The position numbers were made by a program, and so were the translations under genes. Under the pieces are notes generated by a model, which saw only the letters and a program-made list of their open reading frames with translations, did not search any database and was not told the origin of the DNA. A stretch of 64,000 bases of DNA from Chloroflexota bacterium (GTDB lineage Bacteria; Chloroflexota; Chloroflexia; Chloroflexales; Roseiflexaceae), in NCBI GenBank assembly GCA_018969485.1, contig JAGWYG010000005.1:22250-86249 (forward strand), written 5' to 3'. Of this stretch, positions 54,722 through 58,033 are shown piece after piece; positions within the stretch are counted from its first letter, which is position 1; the number at the start of each line of letters is the position of its first letter.

Positions 54722-55723
54722 TCAGGGGGTGGCGTCGTGCGCGTCGCGCGATGGCTGCGGCGGCGCCGGGCGGTCGCCGGCAGCCGGCACGCCACCGAGC
54801 GTCCATGCCTCGCTGACGCAGCGCTCGACCGCACACGCCAGCACATCGGCGGCGATCGCCCCGAGCAGCGTCAGCGGCGGCGCGGGGCGCCGTGCGGTCG
54901 CGACGACGAAGATCGCATCACCATCATACGGTGTATGGATCGGGTAGATGGTTCGCGCGAGCCCATCGTGAGCCATCTGGGCCACCTTGCGCGCCTCGGC
55001 CTTGGTCAGCGTCGCGTCGGTCGCCACCACCGCGATGGTTGTGTTCTCGGCTGTGGCGGGACGATGTTGGGCCGCCAGCTGCCGCAGCAGCCGGTGTGCC
55101 GGCACGATCGACCCGGCGGCGTCGCGCACACCTGCCAGCACGACCCCGTCATGTGCGCGGCGCACCTCGCCCAGCGCATTGCAGACGGCCAGCGCGCCGA
55201 TCGTGGTGCCATCGGCGAGGCGCTCGCTCCAACTACCGACGCCGGCCTTCATCGACCAGGCATTGCCCCGGAGTTTGCCGACCGTCGCGCCGATGCCAGC
55301 GCCGACGCAACCTTCGCCGGTCAGCGTCGTCGCGGCATCGCAGGCCGCCCGCCCCATCGCGTGATCGGGCCAGCGGTCGCCCGAGCCGATCGCCAGATCG
55401 AAGATCACCGCCGCCGGCACGATCGGCACCGGGCGTACGCTGGTGGCGAAGCCATGACCGCGCTGCGCGAGCCAGTGCATCACGCCATCGGCAGCCGCCA
55501 GGCCAAACGCGCTGCCGCCGCACAGGACCACCGCATGCACCTGGGCGACCAGCGCCTCCGGCACCAGCAGATCGGTCTCGCGCGTGCCGGGCGCGCCACC
55601 ACGAACATCCACCGCACCGGTCGCGCCATCGACCGTCAGCACGACGGTGCAGCCGGTGAGCGCAGCTGCGTCGTGGGCGTGACCGACCAGAACGCCGGGG
55701 ACGTCGGTGATCGCCGGGGGCAT
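54722..55723 (-). CDS. P1/DmpA-family peptidase (S58)
   Basis: A 333-residue member of the DmpA/L-aminopeptidase-esterase family, which self-cleaves to expose a catalytic Ser/Thr. 'ITDVPGVLVGHAHDAAALTG' is the classical start, 'RGGAPGTRETDLLVP' and 'VVLCGGSAFGLAAADGVMHW' are family signatures, and 'ATLTKAEARKVAQMAHDGLA' precedes the conserved 'YPIHTPYDGDAIF'. The ATG follows GAGGAGTGAG. It ends the leftward operon and converges with ruvX. Confidence 0.92.
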   Translation of the reverse strand: MPPAITDVPGVLVGHAHDAAALTGCTVVLTVDGATGAVDVRGGAPGTRETDLLVPEALVAQVHAVVLCGGSAFGLAAADGVMHWLAQRGHGFATSVRPVPIVPAAVIFDLAIGSGDRWPDHAMGRAACDAATTLTGEGCVGAGIGATVGKLRGNAWSMKAGVGSWSERLADGTTIGALAVCNALGEVRRAHDGVVLAGVRDAAGSIVPAHRLLRQLAAQHRPATAENTTIAVVATDATLTKAEARKVAQMAHDGLARTIYPIHTPYDGDAIFVVATARRPAPPLTLLGAIAADVLACAVERCVSEAWTLGGVPAAGDRPAPPQPSRDAHDATP

Positions 55724-55727
55724 ACGC

Positions 55728-56525
55728 TCACTCCTCTGCCAGGAGCTGCTCGAACAGCGACTGCCAGAATTCGAGCGGCTGGGCCCCGATCACGAGGCGA
55801 CCGTTCACCAGGAACGACGGCGTGCTGCGCACGCCCGCATCGAGCGCCAGCTGCACATCGGCGGCGATGGTCTCGGCGTGGCGGTCGCTCGCGACACACG
55901 CCTGGAGTGCCGCCTCGTCGAGGCCGAGCTGGCGCGCCTCGCTGAGATGCACCGCGTAGTCGGCATCGCCACCGCCGACCCATGCGCCGGCGCTGCCGCT
56001 GGCGAAGATGCGCTGCTGCATCGGGAAGAAGGCGCCCTGCTCGGCGGCACAGTTGGCGACATGCGCCGCCAGCACCGCGCCGGGATGGATCTCGATGATC
56101 GGCAGGTCGCGATGGACGAAGCGCACCAGGCCGGTATCGACGTACTGCTGGATCAATGCTGGTTTCGTCTCACGGACGAATCGATCACAGAATGGTCACT
56201 GGTAATCACTGAACTCGATCACCTCGATCCGGGCGCGAGCGCTCCCGATGGTGCGCAGCTCGACGATCGACGCAGGCGGCAGCGGGGTCGCTGCGTCTGG
56301 CTGCACCGTCGGTGCGGCGGTGCGCAGCGCCGCGGGCGACGGCGTGCGCGGTCGCGGCGACGGCGTGTGTGGGCGCGGCGACGGCATGCGCGGCGCGGCG
56401 GTCGGATCCGGCGCCGTCGCGCGTGGTGGCGCCTCCGGGCCGCAGGCGAACAGCGCGAGCGCGCACATCCAGCCGGCCACGGCCGCATGCCAGCGACGCC
56501 GCCGTCGGCGGGTATGATCATTCAT
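55728..56525 (-). CDS. Candidate selenoprotein: DsbA-like thiol-disulfide lipoprotein with UxxC active site
   Basis: A 265-residue exported protein if codon 110 (TGA, 56196-56198) is read through. Residues 10-28 form a lipoprotein signal with lipobox LFAC (Cys28), followed by a Pro/Thr linker. The thioredoxin-like domain begins 'EFSDYQ', normally followed by CPxC in DsbA relatives; here the first Cys codon is TGA, then Pro-Phe-Cys. Beyond it 142 codons stay open in the same frame with the rest of the fold, including 'LPIIEIHPGAVLAAHVANCA' and the cis-Pro loop 'VRSTPSFLVNGRLVIG'. A hairpin placed like a bacterial SECIS lies just downstream (56164-56180). Alternatives are a nonsense mutation or a sequencing error at one base. 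No selA, selB, selC or selD gene is in this window. Confidence 0.78.
56164..56180 (-). promoter_or_regulatory. SECIS-like hairpin for UGA decoding
   Basis: In the transcript, a perfect 6-bp stem UUCGUC/GACGAA closes the 5-base loop CGUGA, which begins 21 bases after the UGA. Bacterial SECIS elements typically have the loop 16-37 bases from UGA with G in the first two loop positions; both conditions are met. Confidence 0.68.
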
Positions 56526-57018
56526 AGGCTTCGATCTGCCCCGTATCACGGCGGACATACGACTGGATCAGCGGACTCGAGCCATCGTCACCGCAGTACG
56601 GACACACCACCCAGGTCAGGTCGATCGCGCGATCACACCCACCGCAGCGGCGGCGCAACGACGTATGGCAGTGCGGGCACAGGATGAATTCCGCGTCGGT
56701 CGGACGCTGGCACCCCGGGCAGACATACTTCTCCTCGAGGTCGCGCCGCAGGTACTCTTCCTCGAGCGTCCGCTCGTAGCGTTCGGCCTGGGTCTCGCGC
56801 GGCCGCAAGATCGCGTGCAGCAGCACCCCGGCGAACGGAATGAACAGCGCCAGCGAGACCGAGAGCACCTGGAGCAGCACCTCGTTGCTCCGACTACTGA
56901 TGTCGCGGTAGGTCCACAGCACCGAAGCGGCCCAGAGGACCACCAGATAGGCTGCCATCGCCCAGGCGACCAGCGTCAGGATCGGGATGAAGTTGGTCAG
57001 AATCGCGCCGAAGTCCAC
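56518..57018 (-). CDS. Membrane protein with double zinc ribbon
   Basis: A 166-residue protein. Two N-terminal hydrophobic helices ('ILTLVAWAMAAYLVVLWAAS' and 'VLSVSLALFIPFAGVLLHAI') anchor it, then a charged helix ('ERYERTLEEEYLRRDLEEKY') leads to two zinc ribbons: 'CPGCQRPTDAEFILCPHC' and 'CGGCDRAIDLTWVVCPYC'. All eight Cys are present. The GTG start is chosen for AAGGAG seven bases upstream. Its stop overlaps the ATG of the DsbA-like gene, so it is co-translated with it. Function unknown; a membrane adaptor or assembly role is possible. Confidence 0.85.
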   Translation of the reverse strand: MDFGAILTNFIPILTLVAWAMAAYLVVLWAASVLWTYRDISSRSNEVLLQVLSVSLALFIPFAGVLLHAILRPRETQAERYERTLEEEYLRRDLEEKYVCPGCQRPTDAEFILCPHCHTSLRRRCGGCDRAIDLTWVVCPYCGDDGSSPLIQSYVRRDTGQIEAYE

Positions 57019-57032
57019 GCGCGTGCTCCTTG

Positions 57033-57371
57033 CTAGGACGACAGCAGCCGCTCGACGCCGGCAGCGTTGAGGACGAAGACTGTCGCACCGCCGACCTGTA
57101 CCTCGACGGGCGATGGCGGATAGAACTCGCCCGACTCGGCGACGGGTGGCAGCGGCGAGACATACCGGGTGCGGGTGTAGCAATGTTCGCGCACCAGCTT
57201 GAGGACAGGTTCGACCTGATGGTCATTCACGGCGGTGAGCAGCGTGACGTTGGCGTCGCGCAAGAAGCCACCGACGCTGCTGATGCGCGTCACGCGATGC
57301 CCGTGGGCCGTGAGCGCCTCGATCAGGTCGCCGGCATCGGGACGTTGGACAACGGCGATCACCAGCTTCAT
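57033..57371 (-). CDS. darA: Cyclic-di-AMP receptor, DarA/PstA (PII-like)
   Basis: A 112-residue PII-like protein. 'MKLVIAVVQRPDAGDLIEAL' and 'TRISSVGGFLRDANVTLLTA' match the c-di-AMP-binding DarA/PstA family (formerly YaaQ/DUF970), including the 'GGFLR.GN' loop, here GGFLRDAN. It overlaps tmk in the same order as in Bacillus subtilis (tmk-yaaQ), which supports the assignment. ATG overlaps the tmk stop (ATGA). Confidence 0.9.
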   Translation of the reverse strand: MKLVIAVVQRPDAGDLIEALTAHGHRVTRISSVGGFLRDANVTLLTAVNDHQVEPVLKLVREHCYTRTRYVSPLPPVAESGEFYPPSPVEVQVGGATVFVLNAAGVERLLSS

Positions 57372-58033
57372 GAGGGTCCCCTTTCACTTGGTCGGCAGAC
57401 GCCTGCGACCCTGTCCAGCGATGGGCGGATCGCTGCCTCGATCCGACGTGCGACGTCGTCGACGCCGGCTGTGGCATCGATCGTATGCCAGCGCGCGGGT
57501 GCTGCGGCACGCACAGCGCGGTATCCGGCCGCGACCCGCTCATGATACCCGATCGTCCGCGCATCGAGGCGATTCCAGGCATCGCCAGACTGTCGCTGCT
57601 TGCGCTCGAGCGCCGCAGCCACCGGCATCTCGAGCAACACGGTCACATCGGGCTCGAGCCCACCCGTCGCGCTGTACGTGATGCGCCGCAATTCGTCCAG
57701 ATCGCCGCCGAGGCCATAGCCCTGGTGCGCCAGGGTCGAATCGGCGTACCGGTCGCAGATCACGATCTCGCCGGCGGCGAGCCGTGGCCGGATCACCTGA
57801 CGCACCAGTTGTGCCCGGGCCGCTGCGAACAGCAGCACCTCGGTCATCGCTGCCATCTCGTGATGGTCATCGTCGAGCAGGATGGCGCGGATGCGCTCGC
57901 CGATCGCGGTGCCGCCGGGCTCGCGCAGCTCGGTGACCACATAGCCGGCGCTGCGCAGCCAGGCCGCCAGCCGGCGGGCCTGCGTGCTCTTGCCGGCACC
58001 CTCGGGCCCCTCGAGCGTGATGAACAGGCTCAT
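57368..58033 (-). CDS. tmk: Thymidylate kinase
   Basis: A 221-residue dTMP kinase. P-loop 'GPEGAGKSTQ' at 9-18, the DR(Y/H) motif in 'VICDRYADSTLAHQGYG', and the lid region 'ERKQRQSGDAWNRLD'. Length fits. It phosphorylates dTMP to dTDP. ATG overlaps the stop of the upstream ATPase gene (ATGA), and its stop overlaps darA. Confidence 0.96.
   Translation of the reverse strand: MSLFITLEGPEGAGKSTQARRLAAWLRSAGYVVTELREPGGTAIGERIRAILLDDDHHEMAAMTEVLLFAAARAQLVRQVIRPRLAAGEIVICDRYADSTLAHQGYGLGGDLDELRRITYSATGGLEPDVTVLLEMPVAAALERKQRQSGDAWNRLDARTIGYHERVAAGYRAVRAAAPARWHTIDATAGVDDVARRIEAAIRPSLDRVAGVCRPSERGPS

Follow-up and report, generated by a model that had tools for sequence, protein, structure and literature searches.

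A predicted DsbA-like selenoprotein of Chloroflexota and the hairpin that accompanies its TGA codon

The gene considered in this study lies at 55728..56525, on the minus strand, of the window (the whole stretch of 64,000 nucleotides that was analysed, taken from a draft Roseiflexaceae genome). It very probably encodes a DsbA-type thioredoxin-fold protein in which a TGA codon, replacing that of the first active-site Cys, is predicted to be read as selenocysteine (Sec) by the organism's own SelB and tRNA-Sec, guided by a hairpin downstream. That Sec would be inserted at this TGA was proposed in an initial annotation made from the letters of the sequence alone, and the proposal gains support from the Sec genes of the genome, from relatives with TGA or Cys at the same site, from selection on the protein and from the hairpin.

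The gene and its in-frame TGA

The gene has 265 codons, with one internal TGA and then a terminal TGA (55730-55728). The initial annotation placed the internal TGA at codon 110, in the context EFSDYQ-TGA-PFC, and equated it with the first Cys of the active site. Both points were borne out, since relatives have the first Cys of CPFC there. The codon, a predicted selenocysteine, occupies 56196..56198, and the active-site motif U-P-F-C (codons 110-113), defined by translation and by alignment with relatives, occupies 56187..56198. The proline of codon 236 (55818..55820), in the loop RSTPSF, is at least 90% conserved in 64 sequences and by analogy with the family would be the cis-Pro. A predicted signal peptide (56442..56525), judged by eye on the translation, contains a putative lipobox LFA-C (residues 25-28, with Cys28), assigned by the lipobox rule; ACGPE at this predicted lipobox is kept in database relatives P0003-P0006. 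The translated protein matches the Pfam families PF13462 (Thioredoxin_4), with 97.2 bits (cut-off 23.2), and PF01323 (DSBA), with 54.7 bits (cut-off 25.6). All of these features, like the neighbouring genes, are on the minus strand.

Upstream is an ORF with a double zinc ribbon (56518..57183), whose stop overlaps the start of the DsbA-like gene and which is also found beside orthologues. It is followed, according to the annotation of the neighbours, by a cyclic-di-AMP receptor (57033..57371) and a thymidylate kinase (57368..58033). Downstream, a gene for a peptidase of family S58 (54722..55723) has its ATG 4 bases past the stop of the DsbA-like gene.

The frame is open past the internal TGA, as had been claimed, but for 155 codons rather than the 142 first counted, a figure that corresponds to the ORF from the next TTG. 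The window is GC-rich. It has 235 open runs that reach 100 codons or more before a TGA closes them, and 34 of these are followed by another 150 or more open codons. Openness past the TGA is a weak argument alone. TGA also serves as an ordinary stop, ending 13 of 14 nearby ORFs that were picked, the DsbA-like gene included.

Relatives were sought with the profile NF041057 in 158 genomes of the class, 133 of which gave a match at E 1e-10 and 51 a match over the cut-off, and, across the 82 genomes of the order, with the window protein, which found a match in 81 of them at E 1e-15. A further 60 DNA stretches were added to the comparison. Exclusion of short or partial matches (phmmer, coverage filter) left 135 matched domains, or 132 rows after removal of 3 duplicate loci. 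Among these matches listed, the first motif position holds TGA in 44 rows and Cys in 88. The initial annotation had suggested checking homologues for TGA or Cys at the site and for stops scattered elsewhere. They have Cys or TGA there and no scattered stops, except in L132 and in a small number of rows whose matched stretch contains a further stop (among the matches listed, L131 and G077). L132 (G019:C335), whose matched frame has an intact CPYC, carries three TGAs 25-29 codons ahead of it; this row was counted as Cys. Frames with two or three DsbA-like domains occur in L077, L080 and L130 (an Ardenticatena record, a Myxococcales record and G020), with Cys at each site read.

The nearest relative, in record CAIQIY010000061.1 of a sister genome from the same genus, has 83% protein identity and the identical TGA, and TGA is found at the site in other genera as well. 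In the comparison with the sister genome, dN/dS is 0.40 over the signal and linker, 0.022 over codons 85-109 and 0.044 over codons 111-265. Purifying selection acts on both sides of the TGA, and the value of 0.044 past it indicates that the downstream part behaves as a translated protein.

A search of 5.8 billion proteins gave 154 relatives, none with more than 55% identity among the 120 matches listed. Fourteen database sequences were read, ten of which have Cys at the site. The other four (P0032, P0034, P0035 and P0121; 146-152 aa), known here as proteins only, start just past the place of the UGA, which fits the earlier expectation that automatic annotation would split such a gene.

The predicted SECIS hairpin

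The predicted bacterial SECIS hairpin, UUCGUC-CGUGA-GACGAA (56164..56180, minus strand), is proposed on the basis of its fold, its conservation and the constraints of a published model. It is as first described, with the stem starting 15 nt downstream of the UGA and the loop 21 nt downstream of it. The model of the bacterial SECIS (PMC13188914, section 5) specifies a loop of 3-9 nt, a stem of 4-16 bp, a G within the first two loop positions, a distance of 16-37 nt from UGA to loop, and a minimum free energy (MFE) of at most -7.5 kcal/mol. The hairpin has a 5-nt loop (CGUGA), a 6-bp stem, G at loop position 2, a spacing of 21 nt and an MFE of -13 kcal/mol over 52 nt, and so lies within all four constraints. 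The 52-nt fold is modestly better than those of shuffled sequences (z of -1.83, with 10 of 200 shuffles folding equally well), so the folding energy alone is weak evidence for the hairpin.

The comparison of rows is more informative. The codons GTC CGT GAG ACG are identical in all 16 compared TGA rows of the gene's clade, and the same codons vary, in residue and in synonymous codon, across 39 compared Cys rows (the clade has 45 Cys rows, the remaining 6 being outside the codon comparison but inside the 88-row count of stems). All 43 testable TGA rows have the full core stem in one register or the other, as against 6 of 88 Cys rows, all six at one register and none of the 88 at the other. The exact 13-mer of the hairpin is found at the site in 17 of the 43 TGA rows and in none of the 88 Cys rows. 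L104, whose contig leaves no space ahead of the site, falls outside these counts; the pattern search described below shows its hairpin.

Broken down by type, complete core stems are found in 17 of 17 TGA rows that share the window gene's kind of hairpin (16 of the clade plus L141), in 4 of 4 TGA rows of a third clade and in 22 of 22 of the Rcas_1661 clade. Compensatory changes among the rows give A-U and U-A at pair 20/34 and U-A and C-G at pair 23/31, and in the Rcas_1661 clade four of the five core pairs show two pair types each. The observed pairing of the stem was reached by 0 of 2000 shuffles in either set, a control that ignores relatedness. Since the core is invariant within the window gene's clade, the signal of covariation comes from pair 20/34 and from the other clades. 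Towards the outside of the stem, pairing is not conserved (a standard pair stands at 19/35 in 9 of 21 rows and at 18/36 in 5 of the 21). Over 52 nt, 5 of the 43 TGA rows give a fold above -7.5 kcal/mol, and several TGA rows have a minimum-energy fold other than the hairpin. The members of the third clade (L109, L114, L117 and L123) read SDYG or SDFG before U-PFC, with TGA at the site and a variant hairpin at the same distance, which in one of the four carries a compensatory change from U-A to C-G.

A blind search of 82 genomes was made with the pattern TGA-N17-CGTCCGTGAGACG, allowing one mismatch. It gave 18 exact matches and 5 with one mismatch, while the reversed pattern, also with one mismatch allowed, gave 2 as a control. 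All 18 exact matches are within the DsbA-like family, one copy per genome in 18 genomes from distant genera. Seventeen of them coincide with members found by the protein search, and the 18th, in G030, reads SDFE-U-PFC. There are no DsbA relatives among the five matches with one mismatch. One of these five (L148:1402-3033, minus strand, in G041) lies within a Na/H exchanger whose C-terminal part is a rhodanese domain (135 and 31 bits in Pfam), and falls in that domain. The site reads YCT-TGA-TNDASS, has the hairpin CGUC-CGUGU-GACG and may represent the CxU form of rhodanese (NF041203) named in PMC13188914.

The same TGA in the sister genome, purifying selection on the protein, and a stem that tracks TGA and not Cys amount together to a signal beyond chance.

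Locus, phylogeny and known selenoprotein families

Neighbouring genes were compared at 26 loci. The order c-di-AMP receptor, zinc ribbon, DsbA-like gene, S58 peptidase is common to TGA rows (in full in the window, L046/L076 and L047) and Cys rows (in full in L048-L054 and L057), usually preceded by thymidylate kinase if the stretch extends that far. L055, L056, L058, L065, L067, L073, L085, L097 and L100 keep the first two neighbours and have no match to S58, and none of these neighbours was matched at L059, L062, L063, L069 and L107.

A careful tree of 94 rows was constructed from the 132 by leaving out 38 long-branch, odd or near-copy rows. In it the syntenic rows form a clade of 22 (12 TGA and 10 Cys) with support of 97/95. 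The distribution of Sec and Cys over this tree takes 9 changes, 8 of them forced by well supported branches, and the Sec rows formed a single clade in 0 of 200 bootstrap trees. Cys and TGA are exchanged among orthologues at one syntenic locus. The tree itself cannot separate gain of Sec from loss, but the exact 13-base hairpin is common to separate TGA subclades, which suggests that Sec came before Cys there.

The best match of the window protein among NCBIfam families is NF041057 (Rcas_1661 '(seleno)lipoprotein'), with 148.2 bits (140.6 in the genome search), below the cut-off of 190, and the organism's own genome has no member over the cut-off. The 30 loci that do exceed it (L015-L044, among the matches listed) are in one clade without the window gene. 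This clade has 34 rows in the 132-row tree, including L139, L140, L101_2 and L142, and 31 rows in the 94-row tree, with support of 100/99. G020, which exceeds the cut-off only by virtue of a frame with two domains, falls outside the clade. Three genomes (G059, G060 and G064) each hold both an over-cut-off member of NF041057 and a member of the window gene's clade. Both lineages have the thioredoxin fold (putatively, for the window gene, as a lipoprotein), both begin the active site with either TGA or Cys at an equivalent position, and both come from the same bacterial class. They differ in that the window gene, of a separate clade, has UPFC where many members of NF041057 have UTxC, and in that its hairpin has another stem sequence and a loop 4 bases further from the UGA.

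Selenoproteins of this general kind are in print. A review from 2026 (PMC13188914) includes in its lists both a 'DsbG-like protein, NF041057, UxxC' and a 'DsbA-like protein form 1, PF01323, UxxC', DsbA-like and DsbG-like selenoproteins are reported in PMC1088965 (the Sargasso Sea set) and PMC1794560, and the latter, from 2006, counts three selenoproteins in Chloroflexi. With NF041057 already curated and such UxxC types named in these sources, the initial annotation overstated its case in calling an exported DsbA-like protein with Sec unusual. The published DsbA-like selenoproteins (PMC1088965; form 1 in PMC13188914) resemble the window gene in that their UxxC motif sits in a DsbA-type fold and a SECIS follows closely; the window lineage is set apart, so far as their descriptions go, by its place in Chloroflexota and its near-invariant hairpin. 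Among the titles and abstracts listed in a literature search, none names this lineage. From the score below the cut-off, the separate clade and the UxxC types in print, the window gene is an additional lineage of a known kind of selenoprotein, under the curated cut-off, and not a new kind.

Among named proteins, a 'DsbA family protein' of Roseiflexus castenholzii (P0005) has 48% identity over 89% of the query, and six orthologues of this type in genus g7, presumably Roseiflexus itself to judge from near-identical sequence features, stand at the same locus as the window gene. P0005 differs in having CPFC. The six g7 genomes have Cys in their rows of the clade, no hairpin in those rows and no match to SelB.

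On balance, I slightly favour the view that DsbA-like UxxC selenoproteins form three or more separate lineages in Chloroflexota, each equipped with a SECIS hairpin of its own, and that the hairpin of the window gene's lineage has been frozen as one 13-base element. On this view Sec would be the older state; Cys would have replaced it repeatedly at that locus, in several cases in genomes without a match to SelB.

Selenocysteine machinery, alternative readings and role

The genome of the organism (a draft in 247 contigs, 95.6% complete) was checked for SelA, SelB, SelD and tRNA-Sec, as the initial annotation had advised, and all four are present. The tRNA-Sec scores 67.7 bits (cut-off 47) and is read by ARAGORN as tRNA-SeC with anticodon tca. 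The C-terminal domain of SelB scores 64.7 bits, in an open frame of 791 aa, SelA scores 424 bits and SelD 354.6 bits (cut-off 125). The SelD gene (L075, C178:11574-12500) has an in-frame TGA of its own, in SCAG-U-AAKLGPG, which I take to be the usual Sec/Cys position of SelD. With this second TGA, the genome likely makes at least two selenoproteins.

SelB was detected in 119 of the 158 genomes of the class, and tRNA-Sec scores over the cut-off in 59 of the 82 of the order. With G067 and G068 (tRNA-Sec of about 51 bits) set apart, TGA members are found in 39 of 67 order genomes that have SelB or tRNA-Sec and in 2 of 15 that have neither (p = 0.003, among the matches listed and ignoring relatedness). 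By SelB alone the association is weaker (34 of 58 with, 7 of 24 without; p = 0.028, with the same provisos). Neither SelB nor tRNA-Sec was matched in G071 (92% complete) and G072 (72% complete), yet both have TGA members; several other genomes of genus g9, unlike these two, have SelB, tRNA-Sec or both. In G060, SelB is present, the member of the window gene's clade has Cys, and the Rcas_1661 member has TGA.

If a Cys codon had suffered a nonsense mutation or been misread in sequencing, the gene would be a pseudogene or the product an ordinary CPFC protein, a reading favored by TGA being one base from TGC and TGT and by the draft state of the genome. This reading was rejected, as exceedingly improbable, on the strength of the same TGA in the sister genome and the dN/dS of 0.044 past it; the TGA also recurs in other genera, and the hairpin tracks TGA and not Cys. 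The conservation indicates that the frame is read through but not which residue goes in, and on that ground UGA might be read without selenium, as some other residue, through a change in the code or general readthrough. A change in the code was rejected, UGA being the usual stop in the window (13 of 14 nearby ORFs), and the broader idea deserves hardly any credence beside a SECIS-type hairpin, a Sec gene set in the genome and Cys at the site in other relatives. Of a different sort is the suggestion that the gene is an NF041057 orthologue that drifted under the cut-off and no separate lineage, as its best match and the want of an over-cut-off member in its own genome might indicate. Filing it there was rejected by score and tree. 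The 30 over-cut-off loci listed have their own clade (100/99), the gene groups with syntenic Cys orthologues (97/95), three genomes hold members of both clades, and both the motif and the register of the hairpin differ, all of which makes such drift very unlikely.

An AlphaFold2 model of the product (64 sequences) has a mean pLDDT of 87.5 and a thioredoxin-type fold. Its best matches in the PDB are TsdA/DsbA entries of Corynebacterium diphtheriae (7unn; 4pwo, deposited as DsbA), with TM of 0.60 by query length and 29-30% identity, followed by Wolbachia DsbA1, BdbD and ScsC. TsdA is thus the best match in sequence and fold among solved structures; it differs, apart from the modest identity, in coming from another phylum and in being a Cys enzyme (entry 7uno is a C129S mutant). 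These structures speak for a product that works as a DsbA-like oxidase and not as a reductase or repair enzyme, an idea to which I give a tentative credence somewhat short of even. Against it, the genome has a DsbD_TM (DsbD/CcdA-type) protein of 39.2 bits (cut-off 27.1) and, at 95.6% completeness, no match to VKOR, the same search being positive in 3 of 14 control genomes. The Thr before the presumed cis-Pro in RSTPSF is also DsbC/DsbG-like. The DsbD/CcdA-type match, together with the lack of a VKOR match, leads me to lean towards a reducing or repair role.

For the predicted Sec enzyme, SelB and tRNA-Sec would decode the UGA at codon 110, directed by the hairpin 15 bases downstream. The protein would be exported and anchored to lipid through Cys28, and UPFC would perform thiol-disulfide exchange on the outer side of the membrane. 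The product would then be an outward-facing thiol-disulfide enzyme, with the selenol attacking first.

Since the gene scores under the curated cut-off, automatic annotation would probably break it in two, giving an N-terminal stub and an enzyme truncated at its start. The syntenic orthologues offer a natural series: TGA with the hairpin, Cys without a complete stem where SelB is kept (G060), and Cys without a match to SelB (genus g7). The series makes the replacement of Sec by Cys directly testable, and it lets the benefit of selenium to an extracytoplasmic disulfide enzyme be tested as well.
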